A DNA stretch of 30,865 nucleotides from a virus. The notes under the pieces were generated by a model. It was not told where the DNA came from and did not search any database. It saw nothing but the letters and a program-made list of their open reading frames with translations. A program made the translations under genes and the position numbers. Below are positions 858-28,934 of the stretch, piece by piece. Location of the stretch: IMG/VR virus record IMGVR_UViG_3300047481_000781, positions 1 to 30,865 of that record. One strand, given 5' to 3'. Each line of letters begins with the position of its first letter. Position 1 is the stretch's first letter.

Positions 858-1213
858 AAGGCGTCCGGATCACAAAGAAATACATGATTCCATCACCGTG
901 GAACATCTACTATGCCAGAGCAAGATGTCAGGCCCTGTTTAGAAATGCCTTTTGGGCATTCACACCAGAGAGTTGGTATCAGCTGTGGGTGGATTCAGGA
1001 GTGATGCAGCACAGAGGCAGACGCATTCATCAGTATCGCATGGTGAGAATGGATCCCATAGAAGCATATGGACCACACAACTGCATCATTGTGACCAATC
1101 GCATGGCCTATCGCAAGGCCATGTATGAATGCAGGCGCGCAGTGCCACGCACCAATTGGCAACCCCAACACGCAGTTAATTACAGGAGGAAAAATGAAGA
1201 AAAAAAAGTATAG
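854..1213 (+). CDS. HNH-like protein, divergent (119 aa)
   Basis: It starts at the ATG that overlaps the stop of the preceding gene by four bases (ATGA). The core RMDPIEAYGPHNCIIVTNR matches the pattern of phage HNH-type proteins, in which an R-hydrophobic-D turn is followed by a tyrosine and N-C/L-x-x-V-T. The neighbouring gene has the same core (DRINVYGHYEPGNLRWVTR), so the two look like diverged paralogues. No zinc-binding cysteine pairs are present. Nuclease function is an inference; the catalytic residues look less complete than in the downstream copy, so this one may be inactive or only DNA-binding. Confidence 0.5.
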   Translation: MKGVRITKKYMIPSPWNIYYARARCQALFRNAFWAFTPESWYQLWVDSGVMQHRGRRIHQYRMVRMDPIEAYGPHNCIIVTNRMAYRKAMYECRRAVPRTNWQPQHAVNYRRKNEEKKV

Positions 1214-1649
1214 CAGCGTGCCCATGTTCACACATTTGAGACGCAAACACAAGAGTCTCTACAACAGATGGTCACAGATGCAACGCCGAGCAGGCACACT
1301 GAAGGCCTATCGTCATGTGCGAGTGTCACCAGAATTCAAAGGTCATCAAGGATTTGTGAACTTTTATGATCACATGGGTTTGCCACCCACACCTGAACAT
1401 CAGATGGATCGCATCAATGTGTACGGACACTATGAACCCGGAAACCTGCGTTGGGTCACCAGAGATGAAAACATGAACAATATGAAAGTGCATGCCCGAG
1501 GCAATGGTCGTCTCAAAAAATTGGCCATCAAGAATGGCATCAGCACACGCACCTATTACAAACGTGTGTGGCAGGGTTGGGACATGCTGCACGCTGCCAC
1601 TTGGCCACCCGGCAGAGGTTTTTATCGCAACAGGGTCAAACGCATATGA
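1194..1649 (+). CDS. HNH endonuclease-like protein (151 aa)
   Basis: A strong ribosome binding site, AGGAGGA at 1184-1190, sets the ATG at 1194. The start lies inside the end of the previous gene. The N-terminus is lysine-rich. Residues about 20-60 contain the W..M..R...A element and a FVNFYDHMGLPP segment. Residues about 70-95 contain MDRINVYGHYEPGNLRWVTR, the signature of the phage HNH-like family whose members often read DRID..G.Y.P.N.RW.T..E. The C-terminus has a short basic helix-turn-helix-like stretch (AIKNGISTRTYYKRVWQGW) that probably binds DNA. Free-standing genes of this type are often homing endonucleases in phages. The MCP intron in the same genome lacks its own endonuclease, so a link in trans is possible but unproven. 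Confidence 0.7.
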   Translation: MKKKKYSSVPMFTHLRRKHKSLYNRWSQMQRRAGTLKAYRHVRVSPEFKGHQGFVNFYDHMGLPPTPEHQMDRINVYGHYEPGNLRWVTRDENMNNMKVHARGNGRLKKLAIKNGISTRTYYKRVWQGWDMLHAATWPPGRGFYRNRVKRI

Positions 1650-2863: not shown

Positions 2864-4920
2864 CCATCACACTAAGAACGCAGAGTCAAACAGGAACTAC
2901 CACCAAAGGCAGCTCACTCACTCATGCTGAGCTGGATGACAATTTTATAGATCTTTTAACCAACAAAATTAACCCCATAGATGTGCGTGGTGACTCCGGC
3001 ACACAATTGGTGGGACAATCACTCACCAACGAAATACTACAAGTGGTGGGCGGCACAGGCATCAGCACTGAAGTGACATCAGATTCAGCAGGTCAGGCCA
3101 AAGTTATTATCACCAACACCAGTGCAGGTGCCACCATCACTGATGACACTGCTACCAATGCTACCAGATACATCCTATTTGAAGATGTGACCACAGGCAA
3201 TCTTACTTCTGTGAATGTAAGTTCCAGCAAATTAACATTCAATCCTAGCTCAGGACAGATGCAGGTCACTGAACTCAGCACTGACAGCATCACCAGCAAA
3301 AGTGCCAACAGTGCCATAGTGATTGCACCAGATGGCACAGGCGACGTGCATCTCAACGCAGACTCAGTGCGTATTGGTGACAACAATACAGATGCCACTT
3401 TAGTAACTCGTGGCACAGGTGATTTGATTTTAACCACCAACGAAGGCAGTGGCACCGAAGGTGTCATACGCATCTATGATGGCGTAAATGGCAACATTGA
3501 ACTCACACCCAATGGCACAGGTCAGGTCAAAATAGATTACAGTTTGTGGCCAGTGTCAGATGGCACTGCCAGTCAAGTGCTCAGCACCAATGGATCAGGT
3601 GTGTTGAGTTGGACCACTTTGAGTGGTGATGTTACGGGTCCAGGATCCAGCACAGACAATGCCATCACAAGATTTGATGCCACCACAGGTAAAATTATAC
3701 AGAACAGTCAGGTCACTGTGGCAGATGATGGTGCCATCACAGCACCTCAAGTGGGCAGTGTGATTCCTTTCTATTTTGCCAACCAAGCAGCATTTCCTTC
3801 AGCGGCCACCTATCATGGCGCCATAGCACACAGTCATTCAGATGGCAAGATGTATTTTGCACACAGCAGTGTGTGGAATGCACTGGCCAATGCTGCAGAT
3901 GCTTTTGTGCCAGCGTCACCAGGTGAGATAGGCGCTACCACTCCAGATGTGGGTAATTTTACAGATCTTAAAGTTAAATCTGCTTCCAGCACAGTGAAAG
4001 AATTGCAACTGCACGATCAAGACAACAGCAATTATGTGGGTTTCAAAGCACCCACCACTGTATCTAGCAACAAGGTTTGGGTATTGCCCGCCACAGATGG
4101 CACCAATGGTCAGATGCTGACCACAGATGGTTCTGCCACATTGAGTTGGACCACTGCCAGCACAGAACTCCTCACAGACACCACACCACAACTGGGTGGT
4201 GATTTGGATGTGAACACCAGAAAGATTGTGAGCACTGCCAGCGGCAACATAGAATTGCAACCAGACGGCGGCGGAGATGTGTATCTTACGGCAGACACCA
4301 TTAGAGTGGGCGACAACAACGCCAATGTGACCATTACCACCAACGGCACAGGTGATTTGATCCTTAACACCAACGCTGGTTCAAGTTCAGGTTCCATAAC
4401 CATTGAAGATGGCAGCAACGGTGACATCACACTGGCACCCAACGGCACAGGTCGTGTGGAAATATTGGGCACTGCCAATCAGCAGGCCGGCATCAGATTG
4501 TTTGAAGAACTCAGCAGCGCAGGCAACACTCAAAGCACACTGTTGCAAGCAAGCAAATTCATATCTGCAGACATTACACTTACTCTGCCCAACACCACCA
4601 GCACCTTGGGTTATCAGAATTTACCAGCAGTGGGCACTAAGACAGGTTCTTACACATTGGCCACAGGCGATGTGGGCAAGTATGTGCAAGTGGGATCAGG
4701 CGGTTCAATCACCATACCCAATGCCACATTTGCAGAAGGCGATGTGATAGTGATTGTGAACAATCACACAGCGGCCATCACCATCACCTGCACCATCACT
4801 GATGCCTACATAGGCGGTACCAACACAGACAAGGCCACTGTGAGTTTGGCAACTCGCGGTGTGTGCAACATTTTATTCTTGAGTGGCACTGCTTGTATCA
4901 TCACTGGAAATGTGAGCTAA
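2860..4920 (+). CDS. Tail-fibre/adhesin protein with repeated beta modules (686 aa)
   Basis: The N-terminus reads MTITLRTQSQTGTTTKGSSL followed by LTHAELDDNFIDL, the typical attachment end of marine-phage tail fibres. The body repeats a glycine/asparagine-rich beta module: blocks around residues 150-225 and 465-540 both run from an IELQPDGGGDV- or IVIAPDGTGDV-type strand through RVGDNN and NGTGDLIL to a PNGTGxVxI end. Two further elements of the type LSTNGSGVLSWTT and LTTDGSATLSWTT repeat between them. The C-terminus contains a GDVGKYVQVGSGGSITIPN module. Such repeats form trimeric beta-structured fibres. The start is fixed by the ATGA overlap with the upstream small gene. The receptor is unknown. 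Confidence 0.85.
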   Translation: MTITLRTQSQTGTTTKGSSLTHAELDDNFIDLLTNKINPIDVRGDSGTQLVGQSLTNEILQVVGGTGISTEVTSDSAGQAKVIITNTSAGATITDDTATNATRYILFEDVTTGNLTSVNVSSSKLTFNPSSGQMQVTELSTDSITSKSANSAIVIAPDGTGDVHLNADSVRIGDNNTDATLVTRGTGDLILTTNEGSGTEGVIRIYDGVNGNIELTPNGTGQVKIDYSLWPVSDGTASQVLSTNGSGVLSWTTLSGDVTGPGSSTDNAITRFDATTGKIIQNSQVTVADDGAITAPQVGSVIPFYFANQAAFPSAATYHGAIAHSHSDGKMYFAHSSVWNALANAADAFVPASPGEIGATTPDVGNFTDLKVKSASSTVKELQLHDQDNSNYVGFKAPTTVSSNKVWVLPATDGTNGQMLTTDGSATLSWTTASTELLTDTTPQLGGDLDVNTRKIVSTASGNIELQPDGGGDVYLTADTIRVGDNNANVTITTNGTGDLILNTNAGSSSGSITIEDGSNGDITLAPNGTGRVEILGTANQQAGIRLFEELSSAGNTQSTLLQASKFISADITLTLPNTTSTLGYQNLPAVGTKTGSYTLATGDVGKYVQVGSGGSITIPNATFAEGDVIVIVNNHTAAITITCTITDAYIGGTNTDKATVSLATRGVCNILFLSGTACIITGNVS

Positions 4921-4923
4921 ACC

Positions 4924-5658
4924 ATGACTGGTATTCTGTGTTCAATCGCTGGAGCAACCTACGCCGCCGCTGGTAGAACTGCCAAGACTGTCACTGCCAA
5001 TGGCACAGCAAAAATTAGCACCTCACAAAGCAAGTTTGGTGGAGCAAGTGGATCTATAGGAGCAGATGGCACCAATGGTGAACATATCAGTATTGCAGCA
5101 GCAAATTGTGAGGATATAAGAAATTGGGCAACATATGATGGATTCACTGCTGAAACTTTTGTAAGACACACCGGACTAACTGAAATTGATGATGGAGGAC
5201 CCAGTTTGATGGGAGTGATGGAAGCTGTAGATAATCCATATGAATGGAGTTTTGGCACTGAAAGAAATGGCAATGTAAGATTTGCTTATTTTAAAACTGA
5301 TAATTCTCTTGTGAGTTCATTGAATACTGCCAACAGTCTCATAGCAATAAACACCTGGTATCATATAGCATTTGTAAAAAATGGAACCAGTCTTAAGATT
5401 TATATTGATGGCGTAGAAAAAGCAAGTCAAACAATATCCAACACTCCAAGAACTTTAGCAAGAGATTTTGTTATGGGCAGTTTATATCGTGTGGGAGCAA
5501 GAGCTTTTGTGGATGAAGTGCGTATCAGTAAAATTGCTCGTTATACCGCAGGTTTCACACCAACAACCTCAGCATTCACCAATGATGCCAACACTCTATT
5601 GCTGTTGCACTGTGATGGCGCCAATAATTCAACCACATTCACAGATGACAACGCATAA
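4924..5658 (+). CDS. LamG/concanavalin A-like lectin-fold adhesin (244 aa)
   Basis: The protein carries a laminin-G/concanavalin-like jelly-roll. Characteristic elements are the AETFVRHTG strand, WYHIAFVKNGTSLKIYIDG (the family's W-H-x-A-x-V...G...L...Y-V/I-D-G core) and VDEVRISKIARYTAGFTP, the usual closing strand of phage LamG adhesins, with NTLLLLHCDGANN at the end. Its function is likely carbohydrate binding at the fibre tip. It follows the long fibre gene by three bases and shares its operon. The DNA is richer in A and T, with fewer of the CACAG-type codons of its neighbours, which suggests acquisition from another source. Confidence 0.8.
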   Translation: MTGILCSIAGATYAAAGRTAKTVTANGTAKISTSQSKFGGASGSIGADGTNGEHISIAAANCEDIRNWATYDGFTAETFVRHTGLTEIDDGGPSLMGVMEAVDNPYEWSFGTERNGNVRFAYFKTDNSLVSSLNTANSLIAINTWYHIAFVKNGTSLKIYIDGVEKASQTISNTPRTLARDFVMGSLYRVGARAFVDEVRISKIARYTAGFTPTTSAFTNDANTLLLLHCDGANNSTTFTDDNA

Positions 5659-8880: not shown

Positions 8881-10131
8881 ATGGCATTAAGCAAACCTCA
8901 AGACACTATCTGCAGCAGCGACGCAAGGTTTAGAGTGGCGGTGACTGGCAGAAGATTTGGCAAAACCTATGTGGCCATTAGAGAACTGTCACGTGCAGCA
9001 GCACTGCCAGATCAAGAATGTCTATTTTTGGCACCCTCATACAGAATGGCCAAAAATTTAGTTTGGGATCAGCTCAAAGACAAATTAAAAAGTTTGCGTT
9101 GGGTGGATCAAACCAACGAAGCAGAATTGACCATCAGATTGAAATCAGGATCTAAAATCTATTTGAAAGGTGCTGAAAACAAAGATTCATTGAGGGGCGC
9201 AGGTTATGATTTTGTGGCCTTAGATGAGTTTCAAGACATGGATCCCACTGTGTGGACAGAAGTGCTGAGACCCACACTGTCTGACAAACAAGGCAAAGCA
9301 CTGTTCACAGGCACACCCAGAGGTGTGGGTTCATTCAGTTATGAAATGTACACCATGGCACAGAGCACCAAAGATTGGGCCAGTTTCAAATTCACCACAG
9401 CAGAAGGTGGCAATGTGAGTTTGGATGAAATTGAACAAGCACGCAGAGATTTGGATCTCAAAACATTTGAACAAGAGTATCACGCCACATTCAACACCTA
9501 TTCAGGCATGGTGTATTACAATTTCAGCAGAGAAGAAACCATCAAAAAAATTGATGTGAGTCACACACCAGAAATACATTGTGGCATTGACTTCAACGTG
9601 GATCCATTGAGTGTGGCAATCGCTGTGATTCAAAATCACAATATTTTATTCATAGATGAATTGGTAATGAAAGGCAGCAACACAGATGATGTGTGCGATG
9701 AATTAAAAAGACGTTATCCCACTGCAAGAATCATCATGTATCCAGATCCTGCCGGCAAGGCCAAACACACCGCATCAGGTGGAAGATCGGATCACAGCAT
9801 TTTGAGAAATGCAGGATTTCAAGTGAATGTGCGTCACGTTCACACTCCAGTGAGAGACCGAGTAAATTCTGTAAATAGTAAATTAAAGAACGCCAAAGGA
9901 ATACGCAGCATGTTCATTGATCCCAAGTGTCGTCAAATTATCAAAAGTTTAGAAAGACTCACATACAAAGAAGGCACATCAGTGATTCACAAGGATGGCG
10001 AACATGATCACATGGCAGATGCTGTGGGTTATCTCACAGATTTCATATATCCAATCAAACCAGAAATTAACACCAATCAACCCATGCGTTGGGCATTTGG
10101 TGGCACCACATCAACAGGGAGATCACAATAA
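8881..10131 (+). CDS. terL: Terminase large subunit (416 aa)
   Basis: This is the packaging motor ATPase and nuclease. The Walker A motif is VTGRRFGKT at about residues 22-30. Walker B is FVALDEFQDM at about 111-120, with the catalytic glutamate. The coupling motif is LFTGTPRG. The nuclease half starts with HCGIDFNVDPLSVAI (first metal-binding aspartate) and has later acidic sites, including MYPDPAGKAK and HDHMADAVGY near the C-terminus. The 416-aa length is normal for a compact terminase. The stop overlaps the portal start (TAATG), so the two genes are coupled. Confidence 0.93.
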   Translation: MALSKPQDTICSSDARFRVAVTGRRFGKTYVAIRELSRAAALPDQECLFLAPSYRMAKNLVWDQLKDKLKSLRWVDQTNEAELTIRLKSGSKIYLKGAENKDSLRGAGYDFVALDEFQDMDPTVWTEVLRPTLSDKQGKALFTGTPRGVGSFSYEMYTMAQSTKDWASFKFTTAEGGNVSLDEIEQARRDLDLKTFEQEYHATFNTYSGMVYYNFSREETIKKIDVSHTPEIHCGIDFNVDPLSVAIAVIQNHNILFIDELVMKGSNTDDVCDELKRRYPTARIIMYPDPAGKAKHTASGGRSDHSILRNAGFQVNVRHVHTPVRDRVNSVNSKLKNAKGIRSMFIDPKCRQIIKSLERLTYKEGTSVIHKDGEHDHMADAVGYLTDFIYPIKPEINTNQPMRWAFGGTTSTGRSQ

Positions 10132-11591
10132 TGGCCATAATCAGAGACAGAATAATCAAAGGCAACAACGAGAATCTCAGTGTGGATTACATTTTGGCAT
10201 CACACCCTGCGTTCAAAAGATATCTCAACAGATGGATGTTTCTCAGTGATTCGTATGTGGGCGGGTATGAGTATTTTTTGGGCAAATATCTAGAACCCTA
10301 CAATTACGAGAGTAGATCAGATTACGAAAAAAGATTGAGACAGATTGGATTGGACAATCATGTGAAAAGTGTAGTGAATATATACAACAGTTTCCTATTG
10401 AGAAAAGAAGTCAAGAGAAACTACGGCAGCATTGAAACTGATCCGCAACTGCCTTATTTTTTAGAAGACACAGATTTGGATGGCAGAAACTTCACAGCGT
10501 TCATGAGAGATGTCAGTGCTCACGCCATGGTGTATGGCAATGTGTGGGTGATTGTGGACAAACCCACCACAGAGGCCTACACAAGAGCAGATGAATTGAA
10601 TCAAGGCATACGTCCATATCTCAGTTTGTTCACGCCAGAAAATGTGCTGGATTGGAAGTATGAACGTCAACCCAATGGTTACTATCAATTGACCTATCTC
10701 AAAGTCAAAGAAGAAGTGGTTAATCGCACTCAATATGTGAGAGAATACACTCCCACAGAAATCAGTGTGTACAAAATAACCGGCGATGATCGCAAAGGCA
10801 AGTATGAATACAGTATACAGAATCAATTGGGGCAAATACCTGCAGTGTGTGTGTATAACCAGCGCAGCAACATCAGAGGTATTGGTGTGAGTGCTGTGGG
10901 AGATATCGCAGACGTGCAAAAAGAAATATTTGAATTTTCATCAGAGATTGAACAAATCATACGATTGACCAATCACCCATCACTGGTCAAAACTGCAGAT
11001 GTGGAAGCAGCAGCAGGTGCTGGTGCCATTATCCAAATGCCACAAGGCATGGATCCCAATCTAAAACCTTATTTGCTACAACCCAACGGCAGCAGCATAG
11101 AGAGTGTGTTAAATGCCATACAGAAAAAAGTGGACAGCATTGACAGAATGGCATCACTAGGCGGTATTAGAAGCATTGAGTCTCGCAGAATGAGCGGCAT
11201 AGGATTGCAAACTGAATTTCAATTGTTGAATGCTAAACTTTCTGATCTTGCAATGAATTTGGAATTTGCAGAAGAACAAATTTGGAGATTGTTTGCTCGC
11301 TATCAAGGCAAAGTGTGGGATGGAGAAATTGAATACAGCAGAACATTCTCAGTGCAGGACAAGAACAATGATATTGCCATGCTGAAGATGGCCAAAGACA
11401 GCAACATCGAAAATCCTGCAATCAAAGCAGAAATTGACCGCATGATCTACGAAGTTATCAAGGGCGAACCCTATGAAGATGCATTGGAATTGCCAGAAGC
11501 AGAAGAATCCACAGAAGAAATTGCTGAACTATCTGCACCTATTGCTGACAACAGCACAGAATCTGATTCTGAAGACGAAACTATCAGTTAA
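10131..11591 (+). CDS. Portal protein (486 aa)
   Basis: It directly follows the large terminase with a one-base overlap. The N-terminal region (residues about 20-60) has the HPAFKRYLNRWMFLSDSYVG type of segment and an EKRLRQIGLDNHVKSVVNIY helix common in portals of this class. The central part carries a wing/crown beta domain, a long clip/stem region (EFSSEIEQIIRLTNHPSLVK) and RRMSGIGLQTEF. The C-terminus is acidic (EESTEEIAELSAPI...). As the dodecameric head vertex it forms the DNA channel. The start at 10131 follows AGGGAG at 10115-10120. Confidence 0.85.
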   Translation: MAIIRDRIIKGNNENLSVDYILASHPAFKRYLNRWMFLSDSYVGGYEYFLGKYLEPYNYESRSDYEKRLRQIGLDNHVKSVVNIYNSFLLRKEVKRNYGSIETDPQLPYFLEDTDLDGRNFTAFMRDVSAHAMVYGNVWVIVDKPTTEAYTRADELNQGIRPYLSLFTPENVLDWKYERQPNGYYQLTYLKVKEEVVNRTQYVREYTPTEISVYKITGDDRKGKYEYSIQNQLGQIPAVCVYNQRSNIRGIGVSAVGDIADVQKEIFEFSSEIEQIIRLTNHPSLVKTADVEAAAGAGAIIQMPQGMDPNLKPYLLQPNGSSIESVLNAIQKKVDSIDRMASLGGIRSIESRRMSGIGLQTEFQLLNAKLSDLAMNLEFAEEQIWRLFARYQGKVWDGEIEYSRTFSVQDKNNDIAMLKMAKDSNIENPAIKAEIDRMIYEVIKGEPYEDALELPEAEESTEEIAELSAPIADNSTESDSEDETIS

Positions 11592-12318: not shown

Positions 12319-13023
12319 ATGAACGCAGAAAACGCGGTAAAAGACTCTCAGAAAACTGTTCAATCTGAACCTACCAAGGTGCAACAACAGGCGGACAACC
12401 CAGACACAAATTCTAAAATGTTGACACAAGAAGAAGTCAACAAGATTGTGGCAGAACGTGTAGAAAGAGAAAGATCCAAGTTCGAGAAGAAATTCGGAAA
12501 CATAGATCCAGATCACTACAAACAACTGGTGGAAGAAGCTGAACAAAAACGTCAAGCTGAATTACAAAAGCGAGGCGAGTTTGAAAAACTGTTGAAGGAA
12601 CAAGCGGATAAGTTTTCCAACAAGATCCGACAATACGAATCAGAACTTACCACTATCAAAGTTGATGGCACATTGCTGTCGGCAGCGTCTGAAAACAAAG
12701 CAATCAATCCACAACAAGTGGTGAGATTGCTCAAAGATCAGATCAAGCTGAACGAAGCAGGTGCAGTGGACGTTCTCGACAGTCAAGGCAAGGTGCGATA
12801 TGACGACAGGGGCAACCCTATCAAAGTGTCACAGCTTGTGTCAGAATTTCTGGATGCCAATCCACATTTCCGAGCAGCTGGACCACAAGGTTCTGGCACT
12901 GGCAATGCGGTGGGCAAACAGACGTCGGTGGTTGAAACAGACATAACCAAACTAAACATGAACAACCCTGCCGACCGAGAACAATACAAACAAATTCTCA
13001 AAAGCAAGGGCGTTCGCATTTAA
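12319..13023 (+). CDS. Capsid scaffolding protein (234 aa)
   Basis: It lies directly before the major capsid gene, the usual place for a scaffold. Residues about 10-45 are disordered and polar. About 45-125 form a long charged coiled coil (EVNKIVAERVERERSKFEKK and onward). The C-terminal half has a segment ending in AAGPQGSGTGN, the kind of glycine-rich linker seen before the capsid-binding end. The ribosome binding site is AGAGG at 12308-12312. The scaffold assignment rests on composition and position. Confidence 0.75.
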   Translation: MNAENAVKDSQKTVQSEPTKVQQQADNPDTNSKMLTQEEVNKIVAERVERERSKFEKKFGNIDPDHYKQLVEEAEQKRQAELQKRGEFEKLLKEQADKFSNKIRQYESELTTIKVDGTLLSAASENKAINPQQVVRLLKDQIKLNEAGAVDVLDSQGKVRYDDRGNPIKVSQLVSEFLDANPHFRAAGPQGSGTGNAVGKQTSVVETDITKLNMNNPADREQYKQILKSKGVRI

Positions 13024-13037
13024 CTTAAGGAGTTAAA

Positions 13038-14148
13038 ATGGCAGATGAAGCAACAGCGACGATTCTATCGGAATTGTACGCAAATATTGTGCAGTCAGCA
13101 ATCTACACGCTGTCTGAACAAACAGTAATAAGACCCCTTGTGGCCAATTATGATTTAAGCGGCACACCAGGATTAACAGCACAGATACCAATCTTCCCAG
13201 CGGTTTCTGCAATACCATTGACTGATGGCACTGATATCCCTTCGAACACAGCGTTCAACACCACAAAAGTTGACGTGACTTGTTCTGAAATCGGTGCCAT
13301 GATCAAATTGACTGACCTAGGCAGAGAATCAGCAGCACAAGATGTTGCGGTTGCTATCGGCAGACAATTGGGTGATGCAATGGCCAAAAAAGTTGACACT
13401 GATTTGGCAAATTTGTTCACTGGTTTCTCACAAACAGTGGGATCAGGCAACAATGAATTAACAGCAGACTTGTTCTTCAAAGCAGGTGCACTATTAAGAA
13501 ATGCACAAGCTCCTGGACCATATGTTGCTGTGATTCACCCCTACCAAGCGTATCAATTACGTAAGGTATTGACCAACGCAGGCAACAACGTGATTAACCA
13601 CAATCTATCAGATGTGGGCAATGAAGCGTTAAGATCTGGGTTCATTTCTACCATCAATGGAATCAGCATATTTGAATCCACTGTGGTGTCAGGCACTTCA
13701 GCTGGTGCATTTGTGGGAGCAGTAATGAGCTCACAAGCACTTGCTTATGTGTTGAAACGTTCTATGAGAATAGAAGAGCAAAGAGATGCGTTAAGAATCG
13801 TACGCAAAGGCGCATCTAAAAAATTCGGTGAATTGCTGGAACTCCCTTTTAGGGCAATCAGCAGCTTAATTTCAAACGTAGTTGGAGAAATCCAATCAGG
13901 GTTGAAAAAAGTTCAGAGACTAATCCTTGAGGAAACAATAATAGGAACACGAGCGCCGAACTACGCAACTGCGTAGATGATATAGTCCGACCTGTATGGT
14001 AACATACAGAAGTCAATTTTAAATGAATTGACGGTAACAAAATGCTTTAAGATCTACAGAATATGTGGGTTCTATGGCGTACGGTGTATCAGAATTGATC
14101 GACTCTTACGGAGTTAGATTGATTGCTGACGCAGCAGTGACCAACTAA
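13038..14148 (+). CDS. Major capsid protein, gene split by a group I intron (spliced 298 aa)
   Basis: Proposed coding join: 13038-13837 and 14052-14148, giving 298 residues. Exon 1 encodes the HK97-fold capsid body (MADEATATILSELYANIVQS at the start, LTDLGRESAAQDVAVAIGRQ, and HPYQAYQLRKVL in the middle). Exon 2 begins in the next codon position and encodes STEYVGSMAYGVSELIDSYG and onward, ending VTN. That is the standard closing strand of this capsid class (T-E-x-V-x-x-x-x-Y-G-V-x-E-L), which supports the splice. Without splicing the frame would run into intron sequence and stop at 13974-13976 after 46 foreign residues. The ribosome binding site is AAGGAG at 13026-13031. Confidence 0.85.
13838..14051 (+). 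ncRNA. Group I self-splicing intron (about 214 nt, no open reading frame)
   Basis: Visible secondary structure: P1 pairs exon end ATTGCT (13832-13837) with internal guide GGCAAT (13853-13858), with the terminal U-G pair at the 5' splice site. P5-like hairpin: 13882-13886 with 13891-13895 and a GAAA loop. P7: GACTA (13918-13922, in the R-type element GTTCAGAGACTA) with TAGTC (13983-13987, in a GATATAGTCC S-type element). P8: 13961-13966 with 13971-13976. P9: 13994-13998 with 14003-14007 and a GTAA loop. A further seven-pair hairpin at 14012-14018/14026-14032. The terminal G is 14051. P3 and P4 could not be assigned by eye. There is no endonuclease gene inside it. Confidence 0.88.
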
Positions 14149-16582: not shown

Positions 16583-18649
16583 ATGGCACAACCAGAATAT
16601 CTTGATATAATAGGTAGAGATAAAGCATCACCTATCATAGACAAAATCGGCCGAAGTTTAGGAACTTTAGCAAAAATTGCAGGAGTTGCATTTGGAACTA
16701 GAGAAATATTTCAGGCCGTGGGCGCCTATCAAGATTTCAGCAACAAAATAAAAAATGCCACCAATGCATCTCAAGATTTTGCTAAAGTGCAAAATGAAGT
16801 GTTTCAAATTGCCACACAGAATGGCAGATCATTGGCAGAAACTGCCAGCTTGTACAGTTCATTACAATTGGTCACTCAAGAGGCAGGATTCAGCGGTCAA
16901 GAGTTTAACAACTTAATCAAAACCATCAACAACAGTTTAAAAATTAACAACACCACCACACAAGACGCTGCCGCACTCACAGACAATTTGAGCAAAGCAT
17001 TTGTGAAAGGCAGCATTGATGGCAGAGATTTTACACAATTATTAAATGCCAACAGAAATGTGGTGGAAAGACTTGCTGCGGCCACAGGCAAAAGTATTCC
17101 TGAATTGGCCAAAATTGCTAGAGACACTGGCATTCCTGTGCAAGCACTCACACTGGCATTGCAGGCCACAGAACAAAGTGCTGAAAAATTAGCACAGACC
17201 ACAGATTTAAAATTAAACAGTGCATTGACCATTGCAGGCAACAATGCCAGCAAATTCTTTGGAGAATTGGACAAGGCCACAGGTGCCAGCACACTGATGG
17301 GTAAATCCATTATTTTAGCAAGCGAAAATTTAGGTGTGTTAATAGTGGGATTTGGAACTTTCTTTGCACTGGTCACTGTGGCAAGATTGTCAGCAATAAC
17401 TGCTGCAATGAATGCGTTCATGGCATCACTGATACCTGGTGGTCCAATTATCAGAGGCGTGATTGTTGCTGTGAGTGCATTGGCAGCTGGTCTCACAGCG
17501 CTGATGCCAAAATTAAAAGGTGTTGCTGAAGGTGCAGTGGATGCAGCAGACGGATTCATGAGTGCTGACGACTCCATGAATGGTTATGGTGAAACTTTAC
17601 AGTTAGTTGCTGAGAAACAAAAAGAATTAAATCGCGTTAATGATGAAGACAAAGCAGCTCAGGCCAAAGCAGCATTAGAAACACAAAGATATAAAAAATT
17701 TGAAGAATTCTACAGCAAACAACTGCAAAGTGTAGAAGTGGATGAACGTGGCAAATTACTTGCTGAAGCAAGATTGGCCTTGGGTCAAGGTGAAGTTTTA
17801 AACGCAGAACAATTGTTGAGATTAAAAACTTTACAAGATAAAATTGATGCTAAAGCAGCAGAACGTGCATTGCCAAGCATTATTAGTGAAACAGGTGGAG
17901 CATTTGGAGAAGGCAGCGCAGAACAAAAAGCATTAGAACAAAAACAAAAAGATCTACAAAAAGCAAGAGATACAAATCTTATTAATGAAGAAACATATCT
18001 TAGAAATATGCAGATCCTGCAGGAAGATTATGATCGTAAAAAATTAGAAGCAAATAAAAACAGTATTGATCAGATGGTCAAACAGATTCTTGCAGGCAAT
18101 GCCAGTGCTTTAAAAATTCAAGCGTTAAGCGATCAAGACAAAATTAAATTAGCAGTCAGCACAGGTTTAGAATTGTTGAATGAAGCAGGCAAATACAACA
18201 AAACAGCTTTCAATGCTGCCAAAGCACTGGCCATATCAATGGCCATTATCAATGGTATAGATGCCACCATCAGTTCTTACAGAACAGGCAGTCAATTGGG
18301 AGGACCTATATTAGGAGCAGTGTTTGCAGCGGTCACTGCTGCAACCATAGCAGCTCAAGTGTCTAAAATAAGAAGCACACAATACACAGGTGCCAGACGT
18401 CAAGGTGGATTGGTGGGTGAAAATCAATCATACTTGGTGGGAGAAGATGGACCAGAGATGTTCACACCCAGCTCATCAGGCAGAATCACACCCAATGATC
18501 AGATCAGTCAAGGTGTCACTGTGAACTTCAACATCAGCACAGTGGATGCAGACGGTTTTGATGAAATTCTTATCAATCGCAGAAGCACCATAGTGGGCAT
18601 AATTAATGAAGCAACCAACAAACGCGGCAGAGTAGGAGTCACACAATAA
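16583..18649 (+). CDS. Tape measure protein (688 aa)
   Basis: Long helical protein after the tail chaperone pair. The N-terminal third carries the tape-measure N-terminal domain pattern (LIKTINNSLKINN; ALTDNLSKAFVKGSIDGRDF; RNVVERLAAATGKSIPELAK). About residues 240-320 are hydrophobic with likely membrane spans (GVLIVGFGTFFALVTVARL; a further GGPIIRGVIVAVSAL). Coiled-coil stretches fill residues about 340-500, and a second hydrophobic patch is near 550-600. At the usual 0.15 nm per residue this predicts a tail of about 100 nm. The stop overlaps the next start. Confidence 0.9.
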   Translation: MAQPEYLDIIGRDKASPIIDKIGRSLGTLAKIAGVAFGTREIFQAVGAYQDFSNKIKNATNASQDFAKVQNEVFQIATQNGRSLAETASLYSSLQLVTQEAGFSGQEFNNLIKTINNSLKINNTTTQDAAALTDNLSKAFVKGSIDGRDFTQLLNANRNVVERLAAATGKSIPELAKIARDTGIPVQALTLALQATEQSAEKLAQTTDLKLNSALTIAGNNASKFFGELDKATGASTLMGKSIILASENLGVLIVGFGTFFALVTVARLSAITAAMNAFMASLIPGGPIIRGVIVAVSALAAGLTALMPKLKGVAEGAVDAADGFMSADDSMNGYGETLQLVAEKQKELNRVNDEDKAAQAKAALETQRYKKFEEFYSKQLQSVEVDERGKLLAEARLALGQGEVLNAEQLLRLKTLQDKIDAKAAERALPSIISETGGAFGEGSAEQKALEQKQKDLQKARDTNLINEETYLRNMQILQEDYDRKKLEANKNSIDQMVKQILAGNASALKIQALSDQDKIKLAVSTGLELLNEAGKYNKTAFNAAKALAISMAIINGIDATISSYRTGSQLGGPILGAVFAAVTAATIAAQVSKIRSTQYTGARRQGGLVGENQSYLVGEDGPEMFTPSSSGRITPNDQISQGVTVNFNISTVDADGFDEILINRRSTIVGIINEATNKRGRVGVTQ

Positions 18650-27744: not shown

Positions 27745-28318
27745 TGGATTTCTCCCGGTGCCAACGTCGCACTCCCTGCAGCATCACTCTCACTCTCACT
27801 CCAAAATTTTCATCAGGTTCTCTCAAGGTCTGTGTGCATTGCACATCCAACCAACCCTGAAACAGCTCCTGCCATTCGTGTGGTTTCAGCAGTGTCACAT
27901 GAGCATTTTCACCTGTGCTGAGCGTTTTTTTGGCAGGTGTGCAGTCTATGATGTGACAGTGGCGTGTGGGTCTGTCTCTGCGACTGTATCCATCTATCTC
28001 TTGCCAATGAGTGGCAATATCCTCAAGAGGTATGTGTTCCCACACATCTGATGTGTAGATGCCCAAATACATTTGAGATTGCGGCAGTGTTTGATGTGCG
28101 GGGTGTGATGGATCATAACAATCTATGTGTAAGCTGGTGTAGTCTCTCAACCATGCAGCGGTGCCGCCCGCACCTGCACCCCAATCCAATATGCGTGTGC
28201 GTGGTGGCAGCGCCGAGATCCAAGGCAGCATGCATGGCCATGCTTTGCCTAGGCCTGCGCCAGGAAACTGCTGATGAAAATTATTGTTTTGCTTGGGTGT
28301 CACGGTATTCATATGCAT
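27731..28318 (-). CDS. Class I SAM-dependent methyltransferase (about 195 aa)
   Basis: Motif I is RILDWGAGAGGTAAWL. The acidic loop after strand 2 is HIDCYDPSHPAHQ. A later SDVWEHIPLEDIATHW corresponds to the usual D-V-x-E-H-I/V catalytic-side helix. The start is uncertain: 28318 (MHMNTV) is preferred, 28312 is possible, and an upstream 28369 would overlap the previous gene deeply. As drawn, it overlaps that gene by 38 bases. The substrate is unknown; with a GT9-like neighbour, sugar or lipid modification is one option. Confidence 0.7.
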   Translation of the reverse strand: MHMNTVTPKQNNNFHQQFPGAGLGKAWPCMLPWISALPPRTRILDWGAGAGGTAAWLRDYTSLHIDCYDPSHPAHQTLPQSQMYLGIYTSDVWEHIPLEDIATHWQEIDGYSRRDRPTRHCHIIDCTPAKKTLSTGENAHVTLLKPHEWQELFQGWLDVQCTQTLREPDENFGVRVRVMLQGVRRWHREKSNGHR

Positions 28319-28934
28319 ACTGACCCACTTCCGTTTCCGTGGTGGTCCAGCGGGGTTCGTCCTCCACACTCCAGGTGTGAGTGTTGACCAATCGGTTGAT
28401 CACGGGTGGTTTGCTCCAATCCACTCCCATATTTGAATCAAAGAATCTTGTGCGATTGTTGGGTTGAATGGCATAGTTGCCGTTGTCCAATGCCAGCACG
28501 TGACCGCATTTGTGCTGGTCTGGTCGGTTGGCATAACCATAGTGCAACTCATTGAAGTCACCTTCTGACCAATCCAATGTGAATAGATATCTGCCTGTTT
28601 GCTGCTGTTTGTTGCGTTGTGTGTATTGCACACGAGCACCTGCCAACTGATGAAAGGTTGTGACTGAAATATTGTATGAAAATGAATCCCACAGCACCAG
28701 ATCGCCCAAGGGTTGCTCTTTTACCCCTTCTGATTGACAGAATGCACTGATAGGTGCTCGCCAAAAAACTGCCCCATCATCTTGCATGAAATGGAACAAG
28801 GGCACCTGCTTGGGCACACTCTGCACACCAAACACCACACACCAGAAATACTGATCATGTGAATCCTGTTGATCACGCAGATAGTTGCCCCTCACATAGC
28901 ATTCTATCAGAGGTATATTGGCGTTGAGATACAT
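28281..28934 (-). CDS. Conserved phage protein of unknown function (217 aa)
   Basis: It begins MYLNANIPLIECYVRGNYLR, followed by DQYFWCVVFGVQSVP and ending in TTETEVGQYAYEYR. The P-L-I-E-x-Y-V-R-x-x-Y-L start, then V-V-F-G-V, F-W-R-x-P-I-x-A-x-C, W-D-S-F-S-Y and Y-L-F-T-L-D-W, is a recognisable conserved pattern of marine phage proteins, but I know of no function. The first gene of a late - strand unit. Confidence 0.6.
   Translation of the reverse strand: MYLNANIPLIECYVRGNYLRDQQDSHDQYFWCVVFGVQSVPKQVPLFHFMQDDGAVFWRAPISAFCQSEGVKEQPLGDLVLWDSFSYNISVTTFHQLAGARVQYTQRNKQQQTGRYLFTLDWSEGDFNELHYGYANRPDQHKCGHVLALDNGNYAIQPNNRTRFFDSNMGVDWSKPPVINRLVNTHTWSVEDEPRWTTTETEVGQYAYEYRDTQAKQ

Follow-up and report, generated by a model that had tools for sequence, protein, structure and literature searches.

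How does a phage make its major capsid protein (MCP) from a gene whose reading frame breaks near the C-terminus? The window (the whole stretch of DNA analysed, 30,865 bases) encodes a tailed-phage head and tail module. Read without splicing, its MCP frame extends from 13038 to 13976 and specifies 312 aa, and exon 1 codes for part of a capsid protein with the HK97 fold (Pfam Phage_capsid_4, E 8e-11). The first-pass annotation had reported that this frame is interrupted and that the conserved capsid end resumes downstream, which alignment with homologues bears out. It had explained the interruption by a group I intron within the MCP gene. This explanation holds, on the strength of the Rfam match, the helices, their covariation and 80 intron-free homologues, but the borders, and with them the protein, had to be revised.

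Protein homology fixes the borders. Close relatives are uninterrupted across the site (...EEQRDAS(L/F/R/A)R(S/A/L)TEYVG...), and only one join restores the serine at position 252 that is conserved among homologues: GATGCG-T, ending at 13791, with CT-TTA-AGA, beginning at 14045. Exon 1 therefore ends in GATGCGT^, the last intron base is G14044, exon 2 opens with CTTTAAGATCT..., and the intron interrupts codon 252 (Ser). The RNA agrees independently, through guide pairing and the terminal G. Correctly joined, the MCP has 285 aa and aligns end to end with the 80 uninterrupted relatives, the best of which is 92% identical. The 312-aa length given earlier for the unspliced product was right, but the wrong tail is the last 61 residues and not 46. 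We also considered an intein, which is ruled out by in-frame stops at 13974 and 13983 and by a length of 253 nt, not divisible by 3.

The covariance search suggested in the first-pass annotation returned a group I intron. Scanning the window against 4227 Rfam families (cmscan) gave RF00028 (group I catalytic intron) as the sole match, on the plus strand, at 87 bits (E 4.1e-21; gathering score 50 bits), spanning the full model from 1 to 253. The fold energy was lower than that of 200 of 200 shuffles (z -3.84). The group I features seen here are a model score above threshold, the core helices, a U·G pair at the 5' site, the terminal G with P10, and empty sites in relatives. Coordinates are collected in Table 1.

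Table 1. Features of the window, the MCP exons and the intron (positions in the window).
Feature	Position	Strand	Remarks
Window	30,865-base linear record		single metagenomic virus contig (IMGVR_UViG_3300047481_000781)
TerL	8881-10131		
Portal	10134-11591		
Scaffold	12319-13023		
MCP exon 1	13038-13791	+	251 codons + 1 base; residues 1-251; colinear with intron-free relatives
Group I intron, 253 nt, ORF-less	13792-14044	+	RF00028; borders from guide sequence and homologues
P1, exon side GATGCGT	13785-13791	+	7/7 pairs with 13810-13816
Internal guide AAAG/GCGCATC	13806-13816	+	P1 with exon 1, 7/7; P10 with exon 2 CTTT 14045-14048, 4/4
P3	13824-13830 / 13954-13960	+	two-sided changes in 5/7 pairs, 15 introns
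P4	13833-13838 / 13859-13864	+	Rfam alignment and pairing
P5	13844-13847 / 13851-13854	+	Rfam alignment and pairing
P6	13870-13875 / 13902-13907	+	pairing
P6a	13881-13886 / 13891-13896	+	GAAA loop
P7, guanosine-binding helix	13918-13922 / 13983-13987	+	invariant, 15 introns
P7-P3' extra segment, P7.1-like	13923-13951	+	29 nt, 3-bp stem 13924-13926 / 13931-13933
P8	13961-13966 / 13971-13976	+	two-sided changes in 5/6 pairs, 15 introns
P9	13992-13998 / 14003-14009	+	GUAA loop; two-sided changes in 5/7 pairs
P9.1	14012-14018 / 14026-14032	+	7/7 pairs
MCP exon 2 (SLRSTEYVGSMAYGVSELIDSYGVRLIADAAVTN, then stop)	14045-14148	+	stop 14146-14148
Tape measure	16583-18649		

The structure was compared across 15 related introns with a common P7/P8 core; these are kin sequences, one of which supplied the structure. 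Its named helices are paired in 91.3% of cells, compared to 76.1% when shuffled and 27-43% when slid, and the covariation score is 0.420 compared to 0.144 (shuffled) and at most 0.097 (slid). The 15 doubly changed pairs lie within P3, P8 and P9, while P7 and all of P4 except its terminal pair are invariant. Rfam's independent model yields the same core as the structure read here.

The first-pass annotation had described a 214-nt intron (13838-14051), with its 5' border at 13837, and a spliced MCP of 298 aa. In the Rfam alignment P3 and P4 occupy 13824-13864, a segment that begins ahead of this border and runs across it. The join so proposed is in frame and position 14051 is a G. However, the insert it defines starts inside P4 and cuts away half of it, while P1 and the first strand of P3 stay behind in the exon (guide pairing puts the real P1 upstream of that border, not where it had been drawn), and no guide-sequence pairing was found at its borders. 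The protein would also carry 13 surplus residues that homologues lack, reading LRIVRKGASKKFGELL where they have SLR or alike. We therefore give the shorter intron next to no credence.

With the borders of Table 1, the anatomy suggests a conventional route to the capsid mRNA. The transcript would fold into a P3-P9 ribozyme core, and the guide sequence AAAGGCGCAUC would hold both exons, forming P1 with the end of exon 1 (splice-site U13791 in a U·G pair with G13810) and P10 with the first bases of exon 2. P7 would bind an external guanosine, which would then attack after U13791, and the freed exon 1 would attack after G14044, so that the ligated mRNA encodes the 285-aa MCP. Guanosine-dependent splicing of this intron is what we infer from its strong anatomy. 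The exon frame continues without a stop into the ribozyme core, and it could be argued from this that the intron is degenerate and splicing lost, the gene being dead or rescued in some other way. We consider this highly unlikely, since all core helices are intact, the guide matches both exons exactly, and the two divergent phages that hold the near-identical copies have each kept their MCP frame intact. Very probably, then, the gene carries a compact, ORF-less group I intron at codon 252 that splices by the guanosine-dependent route and has recently moved between phages.

The evidence for movement comes from a second copy. A contig of 10,969 bases (IMGVR_UViG_3300017788_000480, L118) carries an intron at the same base that is identical at 249 of 253 positions. 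The MCP exons of the two phages share only 70.8% of nucleotides (48% of third positions and 50% of four-fold sites), and their TerL and portal proteins are about 71% identical. The MCP frames are intact in both. The four intron differences fall in joints, one loop and the weak U·G end of P4. The site is empty elsewhere: 80 IMG/VR relatives (about 60-92% aa identity), some of them closer to either phage, are uninterrupted, as are the MCP genes of DSL-LC06 and of a phage-like contig of a Porticoccaceae MAG. When the contigs of 20 relatives were searched with RF00028, L118 alone matched, and an intron-specific 20-mer was found among viral contigs only in L118 and was absent from 84,980 prokaryote genomes. 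Comparison of the intron with named phages gave nothing beyond short core matches.

A near-identical copy in diverged exons indicates recent horizontal movement. Vertical descent at an ordinary rate fails to account for an intron that matches at 249/253 positions beside exons that match at about 71%. An old shared intron might instead have been kept alike by constraint on its RNA, with no recent transfer, and the covariation does show structural constraint on the core. We judge this very unlikely: identity between the two phages is as high in loops and peripheral stems as in the core (98.4% overall, against 50% at exon four-fold sites), and the intron is missing from the 80 other relatives, some nearer to either phage. 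An assembly or chimera artefact might be suspected as the window is one metagenomic contig, but this has a probability close to nil given two separate contigs with different exons, the same insertion base and complete splicing logic.

The route of movement can be addressed from the flanks. Both intron-bearing genes have GATGCGT^CTTTAAGA at the site, and a full guide match on both sides was found in none of the intron-free relatives. This shared sequence may reflect co-conversion over a short tract, or the choice of target. A long co-converted exon tract was not seen; identity is exact for 24 nt upstream and 8 nt downstream, and the other flanks are at background. In neither the window nor L118 is there an endonuclease ORF inside the intron or an endonuclease beside the MCP gene, and the gaps between the MCP gene and its neighbours are ordinary. 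The window does encode an HNH ORF 12 kb from the intron. Since the intron carries no endonuclease, we think it most likely that it moved by homing or recombination aided by an endonuclease acting in trans. The case for homing is circumstantial because of the missing adjacent endonuclease and long tract.

HNH genes were seen at several places in related phages. The HNH endonuclease-like ORF of the window (1125-1649) adjoins an ORF of unknown PHROG family (758-1213), and relatives of both (about 35%) occur in the same order in DSL-LC06. In two relatives without the intron (DSL-LC06, L218, 15921-16340, minus strand; L028, 4510-4935, minus strand), an HNH_3 gene is inserted directly after the MCP gene; these two HNH_3 genes are 66% identical to one another. 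Homologues of these genes also lie 3' of SU10-type MCP genes interrupted by related introns (L096 and L139). This placement is consistent with collaborative homing, in which an ORF-less intron relies on a free-standing endonuclease to cut its site (PMC3984707, PMC10448857). The present case resembles that system in that an ORF-less intron has apparently moved between phages, and differs in that the window and L118 have no endonuclease beside the intron. It should also be noted that a PHROG 3704 ('ferredoxin', moron) gene is located at the far end of the window (28281-28934, minus strand), whereas in L118 a gene similar to it by eye (4576-5292) is apparently within the head operon, so the position of this gene shifts between related phages.

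A predicted model (pLDDT 76) of the closely related L002 MCP (92% identical) was compared with the PDB and resembles capsids of the HK97 fold as well as encapsulins (best E 3.5e-14). In this model the insertion site is the turn between strands 235-249 and 256-268, and exon 2 is predicted to supply the last two strands, 256-268 and 274-280. An unspliced product would lose both and gain 61 intron-encoded residues.

Those 61 codons raise a further question. The MCP frame is open from 13792 to 13976, beyond the first strand of P7 and as far as P8, while the other two frames contain 6-11 stops over the same stretch. Such an opening arose in about 1% of mononucleotide shuffles, uncorrected. The frame is likewise open in the L118 intron, but in the other readable introns of the lineage a stop precedes P7, and many group I introns stop the ribosome early (PMC3984707). 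These observations are what favours a functional use of intron retention, with a 312-aa isoform bearing the 61 intron-encoded residues made beside the 285-aa form. We think this improbable in the extreme, since two of the four differences between the copies change amino acids in the stretch, with no sign of constraint at the protein level, the isoform would lack the two final strands of the HK97 fold, and the codon content is biased by constraints on the RNA core. Slightly less likely still is partial splicing by design, whereby ribosomes reading into the intron would make capsid protein with an altered C-terminus and unfold the ribozyme, with the rate of translation setting the ratio. Given that there are two near-identical copies, the opening may be due to chance, and ordinary splicing to the 285-aa MCP remains our preferred reading.

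We then asked how common capsid introns are, as the first-pass annotation had called them unusual and replication genes the usual hosts. This view is unsupported in environmental virus contigs, where capsid genes lead two samples of introns. The first sample comprised virus contigs with a 17-base P7/P8 string of the window intron (L082-L143). An MCP exon was found at the intron in 30 of these 62 contigs and in 15 of 36 sequence clusters, with capsids of the SU10, HK97-type, Phage_capsid_4 and Mu gpT-like families; RNR, tail lectin-like and terminase genes were the next hosts. The second sample was found by a different core string (L220-L299); overlaps are possible and contigs were not deduplicated. 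The ORFs downstream in 77 contigs included Phage_capsid_4 (9), Gp10A (5), Phage_capsid_2 (4), Phage_capsid (3) and Gp13 (3), and no terminase family was among the 25 families listed for this sample. IMG/VR contigs are recognised partly via hallmark genes, e.g. MCP, and the capsid share is inflated for this reason, but so few terminases speak against this bias as the sole cause. Together, the samples suggest that capsid genes, of at least four families, are among the leading hosts of such introns in environmental phages, contrary to the usual view of phage introns as residents of replication genes. Two contigs with a divergent HK97-type MCP (L126 and L137) carry another intron of this lineage, again in the C-terminal region and, by eye, a few codons away from the site in the window.

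As the MCP is a marker in viral ecology, introns of this kind have practical consequences: left unrecognised, they truncate or corrupt automatic MCP annotation. The pair formed by the window and L118 is also a clear example from nature of how a small intron with no ORF can pass between phages of about 71% identity, to one exact base of an essential gene.

The intron belongs to a known type of element. It has the P3-P9 core, 5' U·G, terminal G and P10 of RF00028 and phage IA-type introns, and its extra segment may correspond to the P7.1 of the latter, although here the intron is compact and has neither an endonuclease gene nor an in-frame stop before P7; among viral group I introns, subgroup IA2 accounts for more than half (PMC11835236). 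Capsid-gene precedents already exist. In the cluster J mycobacteriophage LittleE, splicing of a capsid intron was proven by RT-PCR and protein sequencing (PMC3706429). LittleE resembles the window in that a probable group I intron, with a preceding U and a final G, lies in the gene for its major capsid protein and is missing from relatives, but its intron is 819 bp long with a LAGLIDADG-like ORF and resides in another host and another capsid gene, compared to 253 nt and no ORF here. Lactococcus phage Tuc2009 (AF109874.2) likewise has an annotated group I intron in its major head protein gene, of about 1.3 kb and with an ORF. The major head protein of TP901-1, a relative of Tuc2009, is a remote relative of the window MCP (~30% identity). 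We considered whether the Tuc2009 intron occupies the homologous site and rejected this, as it is inserted after about codon 56. LittleE and Tuc2009 are thus precedents for a group I intron in a capsid gene, and the intron of the window is a compact, ORF-less member of the same known type.
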